DNA of 32,531 bases from an uncultured Bacteroidales bacterium (GTDB lineage Bacteria; Bacteroidota; Bacteroidia; Bacteroidales; UBA932): positions 1 to 32,531 of the forward strand of contig CALZOR010000019.1 in assembly GCA_945827785.1 (NCBI GenBank), written 5' to 3'. The notes under the pieces are model-generated. The model did not search any database. It worked only from the letters and a program-made list of their open reading frames with translations, and was not told the origin of the DNA. A program made the position numbers and the translations under genes. Shown piece by piece: positions 3,538-20,897 of the stretch (positions within the stretch are counted from its first letter, which is position 1; every line of letters starts with the position of its first letter).

Positions 3538-3630
3538 CATAAAAACGGCAAATAGTGACGAATGACGGGACGGTTTTTCTGTTTTAATAAATTTTCCTCG
3601 GCAGTTATCATTTCCTTTGGGGAAAAAAAC

Positions 3631-4869
3631 ATGAAATGGAATATTTTGATTTGTATGGCAGTACTGGGGATGCCGGTGGCCTGTGGCATCGTGGAACTGG
3701 AGTCGGGACAAAAGGAAGAAAATGGAGTGTGGGTCAGCCCGTCCCACGGGAACGGAAATCAGGATTCGGACAAACAGGATTCCGGGGTATCTCCAGCCAA
3801 AAAATCCTTGTATGTTACAGCCCTTGAGTATCCCAAAGACTATGACTGGAGATCCGATCTTGAAAAGGGCAGTGTCAGGTGCTCCCTTGTCGTCTATAGG
3901 GATGGAAGTCCGGTGATGAAGCTCGCAGTGGGTGACGAGTACCAGGTAAGCTCCGATGCAGACATGCACCGCATGGTAGGAAGCGATTTATACACTGACT
4001 ATTCAACTGATATTGAAACGATTATAAAGAAAAATGGACAGGAATGCTTCCGTTACTCCGGCCGCGAGTCAATCTATGGCATACATGTGGTCGGGAAGGA
4101 TATCTACACCCTCGGTCAGTCACGCTCCGGGGAAGGCTTTTCATTCAGGAAGAACGGTGAAGCCATCCTGGTGCGGGGCAGTGGCTCTCTGTACAGCCAT
4201 TTTGACTATGACCGGGACGATGGTTTCTCTTTTTCATTCAATGAGACTGTGTCATCCCAGTCAGGAAAGGTGCAGAGACATTATATGGTCAGGGATTCTC
4301 TGGTTTCACAGGTTGCGATGCGTGAGGATATCCGTTATGTCTGGGATGTGATTCTGCATGACGGCCAGCCATGCTATGTGGCCAGTGTCAGGGGAATCAA
4401 TGGTTTGCTTCTGGCTGACGGAGACAAGCTCTCTGCCCTGGATATCCCAGGTTCGGCCATGGTTTTCACCGCCAGAATCCTCCTGATAGAAGGCGATGTA
4501 GTGGTTGAGGCTGTAATTGGTGAGGATGTGGGCTTCACCAGCATCATCTGGAGAAATGGAGAACTTGTGAAAAGTTTTTCCGACTGCCTGACGGTCGTAG
4601 CTTTCGACTCTTCGTCTGAGGGCCTGAGCTGCGCCCTGAACTCTCCATTCCGAAAAGGGGGAGGGCTCATTTTCAACGATTCGGAAGAATATGAGATACC
4701 GGAAGGCTATGTATGTTCCACCAACAAGGCCGTTGCCCGCAAAGATGGGATTCTGCATGTCGGGCTTTCGTCCGTAAACGGAGGCCAGCCTTGTATATGG
4801 AAGGAATCCCGGATGGAACAGCTGCCGGTGAACGGTTTCATCACGGAGATCAAGGCATCGGCTCCTTGA
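3631..4869 (+). CDS. Hypothetical lipoprotein, possibly beta-propeller-like
   Basis: Signal plus lipobox-like MKWNILICMAVLGMPVACG; recurring blocks (NGQECFRYSG, DGQPCYVASV, GGQPCIWKE). ATG at 3631 preferred over upstream 3562. Confidence 0.7.
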   Translation: MKWNILICMAVLGMPVACGIVELESGQKEENGVWVSPSHGNGNQDSDKQDSGVSPAKKSLYVTALEYPKDYDWRSDLEKGSVRCSLVVYRDGSPVMKLAVGDEYQVSSDADMHRMVGSDLYTDYSTDIETIIKKNGQECFRYSGRESIYGIHVVGKDIYTLGQSRSGEGFSFRKNGEAILVRGSGSLYSHFDYDRDDGFSFSFNETVSSQSGKVQRHYMVRDSLVSQVAMREDIRYVWDVILHDGQPCYVASVRGINGLLLADGDKLSALDIPGSAMVFTARILLIEGDVVVEAVIGEDVGFTSIIWRNGELVKSFSDCLTVVAFDSSSEGLSCALNSPFRKGGGLIFNDSEEYEIPEGYVCSTNKAVARKDGILHVGLSSVNGGQPCIWKESRMEQLPVNGFITEIKASAP

Positions 4870-6580: not shown

Positions 6581-7327
6581 ATGTTAAAAAAATCAATAGA
6601 GGCCGTCGGACGTTATTTCCTGTTCCTGAAGATGGTTTTCCGCAAGCCTGAGAAGTGGAAGATTTTCTGGAAACAGTTCGTTCAGGAAACCGACAAACTC
6701 ATACTTTCGTCAATCATCATTGTCGGAGTCATTTCTATTTTTATCGGCGGTGTGCTCGTCATCCAGACAGCATCCAACCTTGAAAATCCGATTATCGACA
6801 AGATGTACATCGGCTATATGGTCAGGGAAAGCCTTATCCTGGAGTTCTGCTCCACAATGGTTGCCCTCATCCTTGCCGGGAAAATGGGCTCGAACATTGC
6901 ATCTGAAATAGGCAGCATGCGCATCACCGAGCAGATTGATGCCATGGACATGATGGGAATCAATTCCGCGGGTTTTCTGGTTCTTCCGAAAATCGTTTCA
7001 GTGACCGTTCTCAGTCCGCTGCTCATGCTTATGAGCTTTGCCCTCGGGCTTCTTGGAGGATGGATAGTCGTCGACATAACCCAAATCATCCCGACGGCAT
7101 CCTATATTACCGGTATCAAATCATTCTACAATGGTTTCTATGTGTTTTATGGAGGATTCAAGATGTCTCTGTTCTGCTTCATGATTGCTTCTATTGCGGC
7201 CTTCAACGGCTATTACGCAAAGGGCGGTTCGCAGGGTGTCGGACATTCCAGCACCAAGTCCATCGTGATTACGAGCATATTGATTCTGCTGTCGGACCTG
7301 ATTGTGACACAGTTGATGTTGTATTGA
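6581..7327 (+). CDS. mlaE: MlaE/YrbE-family ABC transporter permease
   Basis: 248 aa; MlaE family features (GKMGSNIASEIGSMRITEQIDAMDMMGINSAGFLVLPKI). Confidence 0.9.
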   Translation: MLKKSIEAVGRYFLFLKMVFRKPEKWKIFWKQFVQETDKLILSSIIIVGVISIFIGGVLVIQTASNLENPIIDKMYIGYMVRESLILEFCSTMVALILAGKMGSNIASEIGSMRITEQIDAMDMMGINSAGFLVLPKIVSVTVLSPLLMLMSFALGLLGGWIVVDITQIIPTASYITGIKSFYNGFYVFYGGFKMSLFCFMIASIAAFNGYYAKGGSQGVGHSSTKSIVITSILILLSDLIVTQLMLY

Positions 7328-7345: not shown

Positions 7346-8098
7346 ATGATCAAAGTTGAACATCTCAACAAAAGCTTTGACGGGATTCAGATTCTCAACG
7401 ATATATGTGTGGAATATGAACCGGGCCAATGCAATATGATTATCGGAGCAAGCGGTTCCGGCAAAACTGTGCTGCTGAAGAATCTCATAGGCCTTTTCGA
7501 GCCTGACAGCGGCGACATCAGTTATGGCTCCACGAAGCTCTCCCAGATGAATTATTACCAGAAGAAGGCTCTGAGGCAGAAAATCGGTGTCCTTTTTCAG
7601 GGTAGTGCCTTGTTTGATTTTGCCACCGTGCTGGAAAACGTGATGTTCCCGATGGATTTCTTCACCGATATGTCGCAGGCGCAGAAAAAGGAGAGGGCGC
7701 AGTATCTGCTGGAAAAAGTAAATGTCGTCGATTCTGATGACAAATATCCGAATGAGCTCAGCGGAGGCATGCAGAAAAGGGTAGGAATCGCAAGAGCCAT
7801 TGCCCTCAATCCGGAATATCTGTTCTGTGATGAGCCTAATTCAGGTCTTGACCCCTATACCTCGATTCTGATTGACCAGCTCATAGGCGATCTTACGAAG
7901 GAATTCAACATGACCACGGTTATAAATACCCACGATATGAACTCAATATTTGAGATGGGGGATAAAATCGGATTCATTTACAAAGGAACAATGCTTTGGC
8001 AGGGGAGCAAGGATTCCATTATGCATACAGATTGCCAGGAACTCAGAGACTTCATCTGCTCCAATGCCCTGGCAAGAAATATTCTGGAGAGGGAATAA
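7346..8098 (+). CDS. mlaF: MlaF-like ABC transporter ATP-binding protein
   Basis: Walker A GASGSGKTVLLKNL, signature LSGGMQKRVGIARA, DEPNSGLDP; follows mlaE. Confidence 0.9.
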   Translation: MIKVEHLNKSFDGIQILNDICVEYEPGQCNMIIGASGSGKTVLLKNLIGLFEPDSGDISYGSTKLSQMNYYQKKALRQKIGVLFQGSALFDFATVLENVMFPMDFFTDMSQAQKKERAQYLLEKVNVVDSDDKYPNELSGGMQKRVGIARAIALNPEYLFCDEPNSGLDPYTSILIDQLIGDLTKEFNMTTVINTHDMNSIFEMGDKIGFIYKGTMLWQGSKDSIMHTDCQELRDFICSNALARNILERE

Positions 8099-8100
8099 TA

Positions 8101-9354
8101 CTAGATATGTATCCTGAGCCCGGCCTCGACTCCGAACATCAGAGGCTGGTAGGTGCGCAGGCTCTTCGGTTGTGAGTTGTTGAAATAGTACCTTACGCTC
8201 GGATCGAGGTAGATTCCTATGTATTTCCCGACCAGGAATTCGAGACCGAGGCCGGCATCAACGGAAAACTGAATCCCTTTGGCCGGTTCGCGATGGACGG
8301 TGCTGCTCCTGAGCATCAGGTAATTGTTGTCCACACATTTCTCGGCGGCACCTCCGGCATAGACATAGAAATTCAGCAGATTCGAGGTTATGATATTGAA
8401 AGAGGCCTGAAGCGGAATACCTATATAGTGCTGGGTGTTCCTGATATCACATGACTCAGACCAGTCGGAAAGACCGTCTTCACTGACATAATTGTACGTT
8501 CCGTAGAATTTCCTGGTAAGGAGGGTATATCTCAAACCTGCTGAAAGTGACCATCTTGGAGTGAAATCTATCTTTACGCCGGCTCCGATGGAAACCGGGA
8601 AGCCGAAGACTCCGTTCCCTGTTCCCTCAGACACTCCTGTCTCCTTCTGTACTTTTGCGATGGATGGGCGTTTCATCACGCCCGGAGTTTGCCGTGGCCT
8701 GTTGTCGGCCATTGCCGTAAGACCGGAGATGGAAAGCGAAGTCCTGATTTTTTGCTTCCTTGCAGGTGTCTCTTCCCAGATGACCGGTGTCCATGACCCT
8801 GTTTCCTGCTTCGCTGATTCAGATACCTGTTCTTCAATGCCCTCCCGGGATGGATCAGCACTGGCAATGTCTTCCTGGGATGGGATAGTCCCGTCAATGT
8901 TATCCTTAAATGAATCTGAATTGTCCTCCTGCAATGCGATTGTCATGTCCTCTGTGGAAGATTTCGTCTCATACTCCATAAAAGAGGTTGTGTCGTCCGC
9001 CTGGGAAGAGGTTGCTCCGTAAACCTGTGCATCCGCTGTGCAATCCTCCTGAGCCAGAGCTGTGCAATCCTCCTGAACAGGGGTCTCCACAAGAGAAATC
9101 AATTCTGGACTGGAACTTTCATTAATGATGTCCTGCTGCTCTCCGGCTCTGAAGCCAAGCACAGCTCCGGCAACAAGTCCGGCGGCCACCGCAGTCCCTG
9201 CACAGATTCGACGGAATATGATGACGGTATGCTTTCTGCGCGCAATCCGGTCGAGAGAGGAACTTATTCCCTCCCATACCTGCTCCGGAACTTCCTCCTG
9301 AGCATTTTCCAAGGTGGAACGGAACAGATTGTCTATGTTGTTGTTTTCAATCAT
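8101..9354 (-). CDS. Putative membrane-anchored protein with C-terminal outer-membrane beta-barrel; candidate dual membrane-spanning anti-sigma factor
   Basis: 417 aa: ~43 aa N-terminal region, TM segment (VIIFRRICAGTAVAAGLVAGAVLGF), ~170 aa acidic/Ser/Thr/Gln linker, then beta-barrel-like C-term (SIGAGVKIDFTPRWSLSAGLRYTL...YQPLMFGVEAGLRIHI); ATGA overlap with sigma gene. Confidence 0.7.
   Translation of the reverse strand: MIENNNIDNLFRSTLENAQEEVPEQVWEGISSSLDRIARRKHTVIIFRRICAGTAVAAGLVAGAVLGFRAGEQQDIINESSSPELISLVETPVQEDCTALAQEDCTADAQVYGATSSQADDTTSFMEYETKSSTEDMTIALQEDNSDSFKDNIDGTIPSQEDIASADPSREGIEEQVSESAKQETGSWTPVIWEETPARKQKIRTSLSISGLTAMADNRPRQTPGVMKRPSIAKVQKETGVSEGTGNGVFGFPVSIGAGVKIDFTPRWSLSAGLRYTLLTRKFYGTYNYVSEDGLSDWSESCDIRNTQHYIGIPLQASFNIITSNLLNFYVYAGGAAEKCVDNNYLMLRSSTVHREPAKGIQFSVDAGLGLEFLVGKYIGIYLDPSVRYYFNNSQPKSLRTYQPLMFGVEAGLRIHI
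9036..9076 (-). repeat. Short direct repeat, 24-bp period, in the linker of the beta-barrel protein
   Basis: ctgtgcaatcctcctga occurs twice, at 9036-9052 and 9060-9076; encodes the repeated QEDCTA. Confidence 0.75.
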
Positions 9355-9890
9355 TTTTCAAGCTTTTTGATTTTCTCCTGCAGAAGTGCCCGGGCTCTGC
9401 TGTACTGGGTTCTTGATGTCGTTTCAGAAATACCCAGAATCTGTGCAACCTCCTTGTGTACATATCCCTCGATTGCAACCATGTTGAAAACGGTCCTGAA
9501 TCCCGGCGGCAACTCCATCACGAGTTTCATCAATTCTTTATAGCCAATGTTCTGGGTCTGTGAAACAGTCTCTGCCTTCATTCCCCTGGCAAGTTCAAGG
9601 TTGTCGCTCATTTTCAATGCGTCTTTTTTTCTCAGACTCATCAGTGACGTCGTTACGAATATCCTTCTTGCCCATCCCTCGAACGAACCCTCGCCTTTGT
9701 AGTCGTCAATCTTGGAAAACAGCGTGACGAAACCGTCCTGCAGAATATCTTGGGCGGAATCCCGCTCGCCGATGTACCTCATACATAACGGAAACATCCG
9801 GGGTGCCAGCCGGTCATAAAGGACCTTCTGGGCTGCCCGGTCTCCATTCTTGCATAAGTTAATCAGTTGCTGGTCAAATAGTTCCGCCAC
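9351..9890 (-). CDS. ECF-type RNA polymerase sigma factor
   Basis: 179 aa; sigma-70 region 2 (RDSAQDILQDGFVTLFSKIDDYKGEGSFEGWARRIFV) and region 4 (LPPGFRTVFNMVAIEGYVHKEVAQILGISETTSRTQYSRARALLQ). Confidence 0.93.
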   Translation of the reverse strand: MAELFDQQLINLCKNGDRAAQKVLYDRLAPRMFPLCMRYIGERDSAQDILQDGFVTLFSKIDDYKGEGSFEGWARRIFVTTSLMSLRKKDALKMSDNLELARGMKAETVSQTQNIGYKELMKLVMELPPGFRTVFNMVAIEGYVHKEVAQILGISETTSRTQYSRARALLQEKIKKLEK

Positions 9891-10019
9891 GTATTATTCG
9901 TCGGGCCCAGTTTATCCGTGCCAAACTGACAACGGGGAAAAGATGCAAATTCGGCCCTTTTTGTTGCATCATTCATACATTTTTCCCAAATTTATGCAAA
10001 TGTTCCGAATTTTGCGTAT

Positions 10020-10027: not shown

Positions 10028-10076
10028 CACGATTGTTCGGGTTTTTAAAAATGACACTTTGTCAAAAGGCAATTAT

Positions 10077-11780
10077 ATGAACAGATTCCTATATTATATA
10101 ATAGTTGTTCTCATTCTTCTGGTTCTCTTCCCAATGGGAACCCATGCTCAGGATATTGACAAATTATCCGAGAATAAGGTTGTGACGGCCGTAACTGCTT
10201 TCAATTCAGGAGATATTGATTCTGCAATCAGGCTTTTGGAAGCCTCGATTGAAATGAGTCCTGAAAATGATGCGGCGTACTACTATTTGTCGCTTTGCCA
10301 TGCATCAAAGAAAGACATGGCTAAGGCGGAAACCTTTATGAAGAAGGCATGTGAACTTGATCCGGGAAATTTCTGGTACCGTTACCGTTTGGCTTCCATC
10401 TACGGTGTGACTTCCCGTGAAGAACTTACGACAGAAATTTATGAGAAACTTGTAGAGGATTTCCCCCGCAGGAGCGACCTGTATTTTGACATGGTCGAGC
10501 TGTATTCCTCTCAGGGAGAATATGATAAGGCTCTGAAAACCCTTGATGAGGTGGAAACGGTATTTGGCAAGACGGAATCCACGGCAGTCTTCCGTTTCAA
10601 CCTGCTCAGACAGATGGACAAGAACGAGGAAGCATTTGCTTCCCTGGAGGAATACAACAGGGAATATTCGTCTCCTTATGTGCTTTCCACCCTTGCCGAC
10701 TGGCAGATGTCAATGTATAATGACTCCACTGCGCTGGCATATTACAATGAGGCCCTTGACCTTGCTCCGGATTATGCTCCAGCCCTTCTCGGCAAGGCGG
10801 AAACCCTCAGGATGACAAGACATTATGACCAGTATTTCTCAACTCTTGACCGCTTCATGCAGGTTGAGGACTATGCTCCACAGGGCAAGGCGGAATATAT
10901 GATGGCAGTAGTACAGAGAACGGACCCGAAATTCGTCAAATCATTTACCCCTCAGATTGATTCCGTGTTTGCAACAATGAGGCGTGTTCATCCTCAGGAC
11001 AGTACAATCATCCGCACATCTGCGGTCTATTTTTATACCACAGGACGTAATGCTCAGGCTGACAGTTACTTCCGTATGAATGCCGAATTGTACAAGGACA
11101 GTTTCACAGCCAATGCGGACTATGTGGAATTCCTGATGTATGCACAGGACTGGGAGAGTCTTGCGTCAGAGGGCAGGAAGGCATTTGCCAAATTCCCTGA
11201 TACAGCCTTCCTTGAAATGGCAAGTGTCGGTGACTTCAATCTCGGAAGATATGACAAGGTCCTTGAAATCTGTGACAAGGTTCTGGAAGTCGCCCCGAAG
11301 GACAGTTCTGCAACTCTGAGGGCGTGGTCGACGGCCGGAGACATATACCACAAGCTCGGTGAACCGAAAAAGGCATACAAGGCATACGAGAAGGCCTTGA
11401 AAATCAATCCGGACTATGTCTATGTGCTGAACAATTATGCTTACTATCTCAGCATGGAAGGCAAGAAACTCAAGAAAGCCTATGCCATGAGCAAAAAAAC
11501 GATTGAGGCAGAGCCGGATAATGCAACATATCTCGATACCTTCGGCTGGATTCTGTATCTTCAGGGCAAGGCCCTGGAGGCAAAACCGTTCTTCAAGCAT
11601 GCAATGTTGTATGGCGGCAAGGAAAGCGTCGTGGTGATGGACCATTATGCCGAGGTTCTCTATGCTCTCAAGGAATATGACCTTGCATTTGTCTATTGGA
11701 ATCTCGCATTGAAGAAAAATGACGGGGATATTCCTGACCTTGAACGGAAAGTGGAAGAAAGAAAACAGGCCGCCAAATAA
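10077..11780 (+). CDS. Tetratricopeptide repeat protein with signal peptide
   Basis: MNRFLYYIIVVLILLVLFPMGTHAQ signal; multiple TPR units (AYYYLSLCHASKKDMAKAETFMKKACELDPGN, AYKAYEKALKINPDYVYVLNNYAYYLS). Confidence 0.88.
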   Translation: MNRFLYYIIVVLILLVLFPMGTHAQDIDKLSENKVVTAVTAFNSGDIDSAIRLLEASIEMSPENDAAYYYLSLCHASKKDMAKAETFMKKACELDPGNFWYRYRLASIYGVTSREELTTEIYEKLVEDFPRRSDLYFDMVELYSSQGEYDKALKTLDEVETVFGKTESTAVFRFNLLRQMDKNEEAFASLEEYNREYSSPYVLSTLADWQMSMYNDSTALAYYNEALDLAPDYAPALLGKAETLRMTRHYDQYFSTLDRFMQVEDYAPQGKAEYMMAVVQRTDPKFVKSFTPQIDSVFATMRRVHPQDSTIIRTSAVYFYTTGRNAQADSYFRMNAELYKDSFTANADYVEFLMYAQDWESLASEGRKAFAKFPDTAFLEMASVGDFNLGRYDKVLEICDKVLEVAPKDSSATLRAWSTAGDIYHKLGEPKKAYKAYEKALKINPDYVYVLNNYAYYLSMEGKKLKKAYAMSKKTIEAEPDNATYLDTFGWILYLQGKALEAKPFFKHAMLYGGKESVVVMDHYAEVLYALKEYDLAFVYWNLALKKNDGDIPDLERKVEERKQAAK

Positions 11781-12970
11781 TGTTTACGATGAAAAAGCTA
11801 TTTTCAGTAATAATTTGTGTAATTGCTTGTCTGACAGTCTCAAGGCCTGCTTTGTCGCAGAGTGTCAATGCCCAGAAGGACAAGAAGGCGAGGCTTGAAA
11901 GGGAGATTGCCATCATTGACAAGCAGCTGGCCGAGGCTTCTTCCCAGAGCCTGTCCAAACTTACCGAGCTTGAACTTATACGCAAGAAGATAGATAACCG
12001 CAAGGAACTTCTTGGCGAGGCGGATGCGCTCGTCCGTCATTATGACGACCGTATATATCGGGCCCAGCGTCAGATCAACAGGCTTCAGGCTCGGGTAGAC
12101 ACCTTGTCGAATCATTATACAAGACTTGTCAGAAGTGCTTACAAGAATCGGGATACCCGTCTTTGGTATATGTACATTCTCTCGAGCGAAAATCTTTCTC
12201 AGGCATTCCGGCGTTTCGGCTATTTCCGCAATCTCTCTTCTCAGATGAATGAAGATGCAAGGAAAATCAAGCAGGCTCAGGAGGAACTCCAGAAAGAGAA
12301 ATCGGCAATGAGGGAGTTGAAGGCAGAGGCGGAGAGCGTCCGTCAGGAGCGTGCAGCGGAACTTCAGAAACTTAAGGATGAAGAAAAAAGTGTGGATGCA
12401 GTCGTCCGCCAGCTGAACAAGGACAAAAAGAAATACCAGGCCCAGCTCGCTTCAAAGAAGAAGCAGGTCGAGGCCTTGAACAAGGAACTTGCCAGGGCTG
12501 TTGCTTCTGCCATGAAGGGCTCGTCCGGAAAGACATCGAAAACAGATCCGGAAGCAGTCAGGCTCTCCTCAGAGTTTGCAAAGAACAAGGGTAAGCTTCC
12601 ATGGCCGGCAGCAGGCCCTGTCGTTGACCATTTCGGGGAACGTTATCATCCTGTATATAAGAATCTTAAGCTCCCGCCGAAGAACGGAATCGAAATTGCC
12701 CTTGACCCAGATACGGAAGTCAGGGCCGTGTTCGAAGGTGTGGTGAAACAGATAATGGTCCAGCCTGGCTACAATATGTGCGTCATTGTCCAGCATGGTA
12801 ATTATTTCTCATTCTATTGCCGCCTGAAGAGCACCTCGGTCAAAGCTGGCGACAAAGTCAGCACCGGTCAGAGAATCGGCATAGTAGATACTATGAATTC
12901 CCAGACCAGACTCCACCTTGAAATATGGCAGGGTAGCAAGCCGCAGAATCCGATGCAGTGGCTCAGATAA
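11780..12970 (+). CDS. envC: EnvC-like murein hydrolase activator (coiled coil + degenerate LytM/M23 domain)
   Basis: Signal peptide, long coiled coil, LytM-like C-term (PWPAAGPVVDHFGERYHP...RLHLEIWQGSKPQNPMQWL); M23 His residues replaced; 1-bp overlap (TAATG) with the TPR gene; alternative start at 11789. Confidence 0.87.
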   Translation: MFTMKKLFSVIICVIACLTVSRPALSQSVNAQKDKKARLEREIAIIDKQLAEASSQSLSKLTELELIRKKIDNRKELLGEADALVRHYDDRIYRAQRQINRLQARVDTLSNHYTRLVRSAYKNRDTRLWYMYILSSENLSQAFRRFGYFRNLSSQMNEDARKIKQAQEELQKEKSAMRELKAEAESVRQERAAELQKLKDEEKSVDAVVRQLNKDKKKYQAQLASKKKQVEALNKELARAVASAMKGSSGKTSKTDPEAVRLSSEFAKNKGKLPWPAAGPVVDHFGERYHPVYKNLKLPPKNGIEIALDPDTEVRAVFEGVVKQIMVQPGYNMCVIVQHGNYFSFYCRLKSTSVKAGDKVSTGQRIGIVDTMNSQTRLHLEIWQGSKPQNPMQWLR

Positions 12971-19484: not shown

Positions 19485-19533
19485 TCGACGGAAATACGGA
19501 AATTTGCAGCATTTTTGCCAAATTTGAACAAAG

Positions 19534-19571
19534 AAAATCGCCCCTGGAAGCTCTTCCAGAGGCGATTTTTT
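19534..19571 (+). terminator. Rho-independent terminator after mdh
   Basis: AAAATCGCCcCTGGAAG-ct-CTTCCAGaGGCGATTTT followed by TT. Confidence 0.92.
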
Positions 19572-19574
19572 AAT

Positions 19575-19605
19575 TTATCCATTGACAATTTCAGTCAATG
19601 GATAA
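19575..19605. repeat. Second perfect inverted repeat (12-bp arms, 7-nt loop) directly after the mdh terminator
   Basis: TTATCCATTGAC-aatttca-GTCAATGGATAA. Confidence 0.8.
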
Positions 19606-19643
19606 TTCTTTGGAACTTTGCAGCGGATATAAAATATAAAGCT

Positions 19644-20897
19644 ATGGAGAGAAAGAAAAATTATCTGTTCGCAGCATTGCTCCTTATTTTTGCTACTGTT
19701 TCATGTGAACTTGTCGATGATGACTTGAACAAACACTGGAATCCTGATTCCGGTAATGACAGTACGGCTGTTGATCTGGATGCCGTTGCGGAAATCATTG
19801 CCGCTCTTCCCCTGGATGACATACATCTGAAGGAGGTTCATGCGGCCGTGAGCAGTTCGTCTCTAAACGGTTACGATGAAGAGTATACCATGCGCAATCT
19901 CTTTTCAAATCCGGGTTCCGGAGTCGGCGACCCCGAAGTGGAGTCCAAGGCTGCGCAGTTCATGCAAAATCCGCTCAGAAAGCTGATAGAAGAGCATGTA
20001 CACAGTTCTGCAGGCATACCGACCAAGGCCGGCACTTCCTCAGAGGTTGATCCGGACAAGTTTCTCAAGGCTCTGACTGACTCGGATATCCAGATTTACT
20101 GGCCTTTTTCAGAAAACTGGGACGGGAGCACTTTCCCAATTGTAACATTTGACCCGGAAGACGGAGCCGATGCGAATGTCGGCTATCGTCTGATTGTCGG
20201 CCGGGACGGGAGCCGGAGCATCGAAAGCGTGATTGTCGATGAAGAGATGGCTGCCGAAGAGCCGGTGTGGGTGGTGAACAGAAACTCGGATGCAGGTTAT
20301 ACTTCACTTGAAATGCTGCGCAGGAATGACCCTGACTGGGGAGAAGGAGGCGGTTCAATCATAGTCATGCCTTCCGGAAAACTGAACCTCTGCCCGGGAA
20401 CCAAAGCATCCTCAAAACCCCTTAGGTCGCTTGTCCTGAAGGACTTTACAATGAAGAGGAATTTTGACCCATGGTTTGCCGGGGCATCTGAATTCTTCGT
20501 CAAGACCGGCTATGTGGAGGACTTCACCGCAACGACTGAAGCCGAACTGAGGCTGTACAATCCTACCGTGACTGATTTTCTTGTCGTCGTGAAGCGCAAT
20601 CAGGTCGGGATTCCCCAGCCGTTCAATGCCATGCTGATAACAGACTGGAGCGACCAGATGACGCATTGTGCATTCATGATAACGGAAGATGACGGGGGCA
20701 CCAGGACGGAATGGAAGTGTACGGCTCTGGTAAGGGTTGCATCGAAGAGTTATGGCGTGGAAATAAACCTGCCTTTCAATTCCAGGGATGACTATGTCTG
20801 GAGAGGACAGCTTTCAAACAAGTGGATAAAGCAGAATAGCGGAATAACCTCGCATTTCGGGGATGTGGACCTTACTTTTGAGGTCCTTGAGCAGTAG
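19644..20897 (+). CDS. Hypothetical lipoprotein (417 aa)
   Basis: MERKKNYLFAALLLIFATVSCE signal/lipobox; no recognised domain. Confidence 0.75.
   Translation: MERKKNYLFAALLLIFATVSCELVDDDLNKHWNPDSGNDSTAVDLDAVAEIIAALPLDDIHLKEVHAAVSSSSLNGYDEEYTMRNLFSNPGSGVGDPEVESKAAQFMQNPLRKLIEEHVHSSAGIPTKAGTSSEVDPDKFLKALTDSDIQIYWPFSENWDGSTFPIVTFDPEDGADANVGYRLIVGRDGSRSIESVIVDEEMAAEEPVWVVNRNSDAGYTSLEMLRRNDPDWGEGGGSIIVMPSGKLNLCPGTKASSKPLRSLVLKDFTMKRNFDPWFAGASEFFVKTGYVEDFTATTEAELRLYNPTVTDFLVVVKRNQVGIPQPFNAMLITDWSDQMTHCAFMITEDDGGTRTEWKCTALVRVASKSYGVEINLPFNSRDDYVWRGQLSNKWIKQNSGITSHFGDVDLTFEVLEQ
20867..20886. repeat. 6-bp inverted repeat inside the convergent gene overlap
   Basis: GGACCT-tacttttg-AGGTCC. Confidence 0.5.

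Follow-up and report, generated by a model that had tools for sequence, protein, structure and literature searches.

The locus raises the question of whether an ECF sigma factor gene and the overlapping gene for a predicted membrane-spanning beta-barrel protein form a sigma/anti-sigma switch, and which genes such a switch would control. The window (i.e., the whole stretch of 32,531 nucleotides that was analyzed) is contig C19 of a draft genome of 1.99 Mb that is 88% complete, and the nearest named loci came from Bacteroidales of the gut and rumen that have not been cultured, Candidatus Cryptobacteroides species among them. The two genes and the parts of the second product were delimited as follows.

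9351..9890, minus strand: ECF sigma factor gene, 179 aa, GTG start (open reading frame and Pfam).
8101..9354, minus strand: Dma/Reo-family gene of 417 aa, predicted to encode an anti-sigma factor (open reading frame, Pfam, alignment, AF2 and homology).
9208..9354, minus strand: N-terminal domain, residues 1–49, predicted to be cytosolic and the putative sigma-binding part (alignment and AF2).
9145..9207, minus strand: single predicted inner-membrane TM helix, residues 50–70, with Arg-Arg just before it (hydropathy and AF2).
8746..9144, minus strand: acidic disordered tether, residues 71–203, predicted to be periplasmic (pLDDT and charge).
9034..9075, minus strand: two QEDCTA repeats within the tether (sequence).
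8104..8745, minus strand: predicted 8-stranded outer-membrane beta-barrel, residues 204–417 (PF13568, AF2 and Foldseek).
8335..8337, minus strand: Cys340 in the barrel motif GGxxEKC (family alignment).

The sigma factor matched Pfam region 2 (residues 24–90, E = 1e-11) and r4_2 (residues 118–170, E = 4e-13), in agreement with the ECF identity proposed by the first-pass annotation, which had also located both reading frames and the ATGA at 9351–9354, where the sigma stop codon overlaps the start of the 417-aa partner, exactly as we found them. Pairwise identity of the sigma factors within the family was 62%, and the genome encodes seven or more further ECF sigma factors. Homologues were detected in 123 of the 150 genomes searched from the same family (22 of 26 genera); in the order as a whole, 105 of 295 genomes had them. 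Both genes were retrievable for 139 pairs, spread over many Bacteroidales families. In all of these the sigma gene was immediately upstream in the same orientation, and the genes overlapped in 102 pairs, most commonly by 8 or 4 nt; with an order this constant and overlap this frequent, the coupling is not a matter of chance.

A TPR protein gene and an M23 peptidase gene (10059–12970, plus strand) diverge from the sigma gene and stood beside the pair in 77 of 80 related loci. On the other side, mlaE and mlaF homologues (6581–7327 and 7346–8098, respectively, plus strand) converge on the anti-sigma gene, as they did in 54 of 80 family loci. We considered mlaE-mlaF as a functional partner and rejected it, because these genes were mostly absent from the most diverged loci; they were treated as part of the neighborhood, not of the system. 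In distant families, the sigma and anti-sigma genes stayed joined while the flanking genes differed, and the pair was therefore treated as the unit.

The layout of the 417-aa protein bore out the earlier description of a soluble N-terminus, one TM helix, an acidic low-complexity linker and a small C-terminal barrel, and the structure prediction that had been suggested for the protein alone returned the helix, the disordered tether and the 8-stranded barrel. A motif, FDxxxRxxL...E.V...W.GI, was conserved at the N-terminus, with W27 invariant in the family alignment (A1), and the AF2 model placed helices there at residues 5–16 and 24–70, the latter running on through the TM stretch. This stretch (approximately residues 50–68) was the sole hydrophobic one, with a hydropathy peak of 2.03 at residue 50. 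The tether, of approximately 130 aa, had a pLDDT below 50 over residues 73–188 and a net charge of −24 over residues 73–200. The modeled barrel comprised eight strands spanning residues 204–416 with a pLDDT mostly above 90; PF13568 matched it above its cut-off (E = 2.5e-7), and its best fold matches in the PDB by Foldseek were OmpA, Ail, NspA, OmpX and OmpW (E = 1e-7 to 1e-4), while a sequence search of solved structures with the 417-aa protein gave no match. No Pfam anti-sigma domain, including the zinc/RseA-type ASD and FecR-type domains, was found among 85 family members, consistent with the earlier observation that no classical anti-sigma domain is evident in the N-terminus.

Pairwise identity within the family was 49% for the barrel, 41% for the TM region, 36% for the N-terminus and 16% for the tether. 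Despite the divergence of the tether sequence, the distance between the positions of A58 and P253 was 195 ± 20 residues across the family, and such constancy of length without constancy of sequence is what would be expected of a spacer between two membranes. The QEDCTA repeats reported earlier are real, being an exact 18-nt duplication with 24-nt spacing (9035 and 9059); as a family trait they were discarded, since they were absent from the five near relatives examined and look lineage-specific. The GGxxEKC cysteine was present in 96 of 140 aligned family proteins (69%). It was often the only cysteine beyond the TM helix, where usually zero or one other occurred, and we regard it as no more than a candidate sensor residue. 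A barrel cysteine is uncommon among the outer-membrane proteins of anaerobes.

Dma proteins are defined by a domain at the N-terminus that binds the sigma factor, followed by a TM helix, a disordered tether and a barrel at the C-terminus, together with an adjoining ECF21 sigma factor (PMC13088901). In Bacteroides thetaiotaomicron, Dma2-Das2 corresponds to BT_1558-BT_1559, the gene order is das2, dma2, DUF4943, DUF4858 and a nitronate monooxygenase-like gene, and the phenotype of the Dma2 deletion depends on its sigma factor (PMC13088901). A Bacteroides finegoldii record (L330) had exactly this order, for which reason its barrel protein was taken as the Dma2 ortholog; all comparisons with Dma2 were made via this ortholog, identified by gene order. 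The 417-aa protein matched it by BLASTP in both the barrel (E = 6.7e-17) and the N-terminus (residues 3–56, E = 1e-4), the family HMM scored it at 121.6 bits, and profile–profile comparison gave 99.9% (E = 1e-31). The paired sigma factor was 35% identical to the Das2 ortholog (E = 3.6e-35), and in the sigma tree a branch with a support of 95/98 separated the 54 Dma-linked sigma factors from seven other ECF sigma factors of the genome, although long branches call for caution here. The comparison with Dma proteins that had been advised gave a match to the Dma2 ortholog, and the Dma-like identity proposed in the first-pass annotation rests on sequence homology to this ortholog and to Das2, beyond a similar layout. 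The comparison supports placing the pair in the Dma/Reo family, as a member from another Bacteroidales family.

The likeness to Dma2-Das2 extends to the overlapping genes for a sigma factor and a predicted envelope-spanning anti-sigma factor, the four-part layout, homology at both ends of the protein and the barrel cysteine, which the Dma2 ortholog also carries. The differences are the low identity to the 417-aa protein (24%), the missing DUF4943, DUF4858 and nitronate monooxygenase genes, and, in the window's family, the position of the pair divergent from the TPR/M23-peptidase operon and convergent with mlaE-mlaF. The same layout is found in Dma1-Das1 and in EcfO-Reo of B. fragilis and Phocaeicola vulgatus (PMC9308784, PMC13114119). 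In the latter species, EcfO-Reo ranks with the genes that show the strongest induction by BcpT and by the BamA inhibitor bacteroidetocin, and it controls nigD genes (PMC9308784, PMC13114119). Sigma-barrel-NigD operons were found in other Bacteroidales (L154, L156 and L158), along with a similar P. distasonis locus, with sigma factors approximately 50% identical to that of the window. Unlike these, the window pair had no adjoining NigD gene and none was found in its genome (88% complete), where a search for NigD_N gave no match, as did the control search.

The upstream region of the sigma gene contained a putative promoter, TGCAAC-N16-GCATCT, whose elements were predicted from an alignment of 79 upstream regions as follows.

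9963..9968, minus strand: predicted −35 element TGCAAC of the sigma-dma operon.
9941..9946, minus strand: predicted −10 element GCATCT, separated from the −35 element by a 16-nt spacer.

The motif was exact in 74 of the 79 orthologous loci, the motif loci being the window, L042–L121, L192–L198 and L248–L327; in the window, it occupies 9941–9968 (minus strand), 50 nt ahead of the sigma start codon. Related elements, TGCA[AG]C and [GA]CATC, were observed ahead of Dma-linked sigma factors in other families. The window's genome contained seven exact copies versus none of the reversed pattern, and 41 genomes of the genus contained 134 copies versus 11 for the reversed control. At least one copy was present in 31 of 33 genomes with an ortholog versus 3 of 8 without (p = 0.0014, not corrected for relatedness); there were thus two ortholog-bearing genomes lacking the exact motif and three genomes with the motif but no detected ortholog, the latter being 63–84% complete.

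Among 87 sampled loci, the genes behind the motif included the sigma gene itself (17), secreted M6 peptidases (15), lpxD (6), NigD_C lipoproteins (5, all in other genomes of the genus) and a PagL (lipid A deacylase)-like group (3), where LpxD and LpxC were named by eye from the sequence and the M6, NigD_C and PagL names derive from one scanned member per group. Several further lipoprotein and outer-membrane protein groups also followed the motif, including VWA and CarboxypepD_reg lipoproteins. Within the window's genome, convincing sites lay ahead of the sigma gene, of lpxD-lpxC, of a lipoprotein gene and of genes for a predicted outer-membrane protein and a lipoprotein. The lpxD site (L195, G000:C7:14045-14072) is 141 nt upstream of lpxD, which is followed by lpxC, and five further genomes of the genus had the motif and lpxD in a similar arrangement. 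The site L197 (G000:C20:2522-2549) is approximately 23 nt before the genes for a 302-aa outer-membrane-like protein without a Pfam match and a lipoprotein, and L194 (G000:C4:27559-27586) directly precedes the gene for a 166-aa lipoprotein, also without a Pfam match. The remaining copies, inside genes, may have arisen by chance. We infer that the window's sigma factor reads TGCAAC-N16-GCATCT, and the predicted regulon would be an autoregulated outer-membrane and lipid A response. The conserved predicted promoter and the predicted target set are new here; the literature searched yielded no published motif for promoters of this sigma group, and one may still exist.

Taken as read from the DNA, the gene coupling, the domain layout, the homology to Dma2 and Reo-like loci, the conserved promoter and the downstream genes point to a Dma/Reo-type switch, in which an envelope-spanning anti-sigma factor would free its sigma factor upon disturbance of the outer membrane and the sigma factor would drive the TGCAAC-N16-GCATCT genes; we assign this reading a probability of approximately 0.85. 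The 417-aa protein would be anchored in the inner membrane by its single helix, with the short N-terminus holding the ECF sigma factor and the barrel sitting in the outer membrane, at the far end of the disordered tether. Disturbance of the outer membrane or of its assembly would cause the connection to be lost or cut, and the freed sigma factor would then transcribe the operon that encodes it, along with a few lipid A, lipoprotein and secreted-protein genes. That the barrel reports the state of the outer membrane through the tether would be consistent with the predicted regulon and with the published Reo data; the induction of EcfO-Reo by BcpT and bacteroidetocin and its control of nigD agree with the targets predicted here. 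NigD-domain lipoproteins among the predicted targets in sister genomes would be a further likeness to EcfO-Reo, whereas lpxD, M6 peptidase and PagL-like targets were seen only in the window's genus, the sole genus surveyed for the motif.

In Escherichia coli, outer-membrane trouble frees the ECF sigma factor sigma-E from RseA, and sigma-E drives its own operon together with lipid A and outer-membrane genes; RseA has no tether or barrel and depends on the separate sensors DegS and RseB. The pair is not a member of this system, as no RseA domain occurred in the 85 family proteins, and the likeness is one of principle: an autoregulated lipid A/outer-membrane response, predicted here, with lpxD in both. 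A stronger version, in which the family would serve this lineage as a Bacteroidales equivalent of the sigma-E lipid A response, with the barrel itself sensing lipid A or the redox state in the outer membrane, possibly via the GGxxEKC cysteine, and lpxD, PagL-like and NigD genes being driven from a promoter reserved for them, appears unlikely.

Other explanations concern the role of the barrel protein and the ownership of the regulon. The barrel could be an ordinary small one, in the outer membrane or anchored in the inner membrane, that is co-transcribed with the sigma gene and has no anti-sigma role. Pfam indeed recognizes the barrel only, and in mean-field DCA the top pair between the sigma factor and the N-terminus (N97-E21), the strongest overall, barely exceeded the sigma-barrel noise, which reached a z of 6.9. 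However, a plain barrel would have no use for a TM helix and a conserved N-terminus with an almost invariant Trp, it would leave the mostly overlapping position behind a sigma gene in 139 of 139 pairs unaccounted for, and the protein is homologous to Dma2, whose deletion phenotype requires its sigma factor; we therefore consider this explanation very improbable. Alternatively, the predicted regulon might be that of a different sigma factor that prefers the same promoters, and the pair would then have other targets. The further ECF sigma factors of the genome and the motif copies in three of the eight genomes without a detected ortholog would allow for this, but only one of the seven exact sites in the window's genome precedes an ECF sigma gene, namely the window's own, and motif presence tracks the ortholog, the three motif-bearing genomes without one being 63–84% complete, which makes such a mismatch quite doubtful.

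A closer variant accepts a true anti-sigma factor whose barrel would act mainly as a check on barrel assembly, the signal being failed assembly and not a ligand or the state of the lipids: with BAM active, the barrel would fold into the outer membrane, and a block of BAM would leave it unfolded in the periplasm, where it would set off cleavage of the tether. The strong induction of the related EcfO-Reo by bacteroidetocin and BcpT speaks for this variant, and a long, disordered, sequence-variable tether would suit a protease target. Yet no other part of the protein is as well conserved as the barrel (49% versus 36% for the N-terminus), and its cysteine and other positions are kept beyond what assembly needs, which fits a more specific sensor; this variant is accordingly possible, if somewhat unlikely. 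The preferred Dma/Reo-type reading, with a barrel reporting on the outer membrane, bears on proteins that were described only recently. The locus indicates that such proteins occur in most of the genomes searched from another gut and rumen Bacteroidales family, and it contributes a promoter motif, a handful of predicted direct targets in lipid A and outer-membrane functions, and a widely kept barrel cysteine, with which the signal sensed by the barrel becomes a testable question.

Elsewhere in the window, two open reading frames on the plus strand had no Pfam match (3562–4869, 435 aa, and 19515–20897, 460 aa). Four PLSDB records among the loci (NZ_OY725762, NZ_OY725958, NZ_OY725915 and OY726030; L328, L329, L330 and L331, respectively) are labelled as gut Bacteroidales plasmids; they bear metH, smpB, queC and other such genes and resemble pieces of chromosome.
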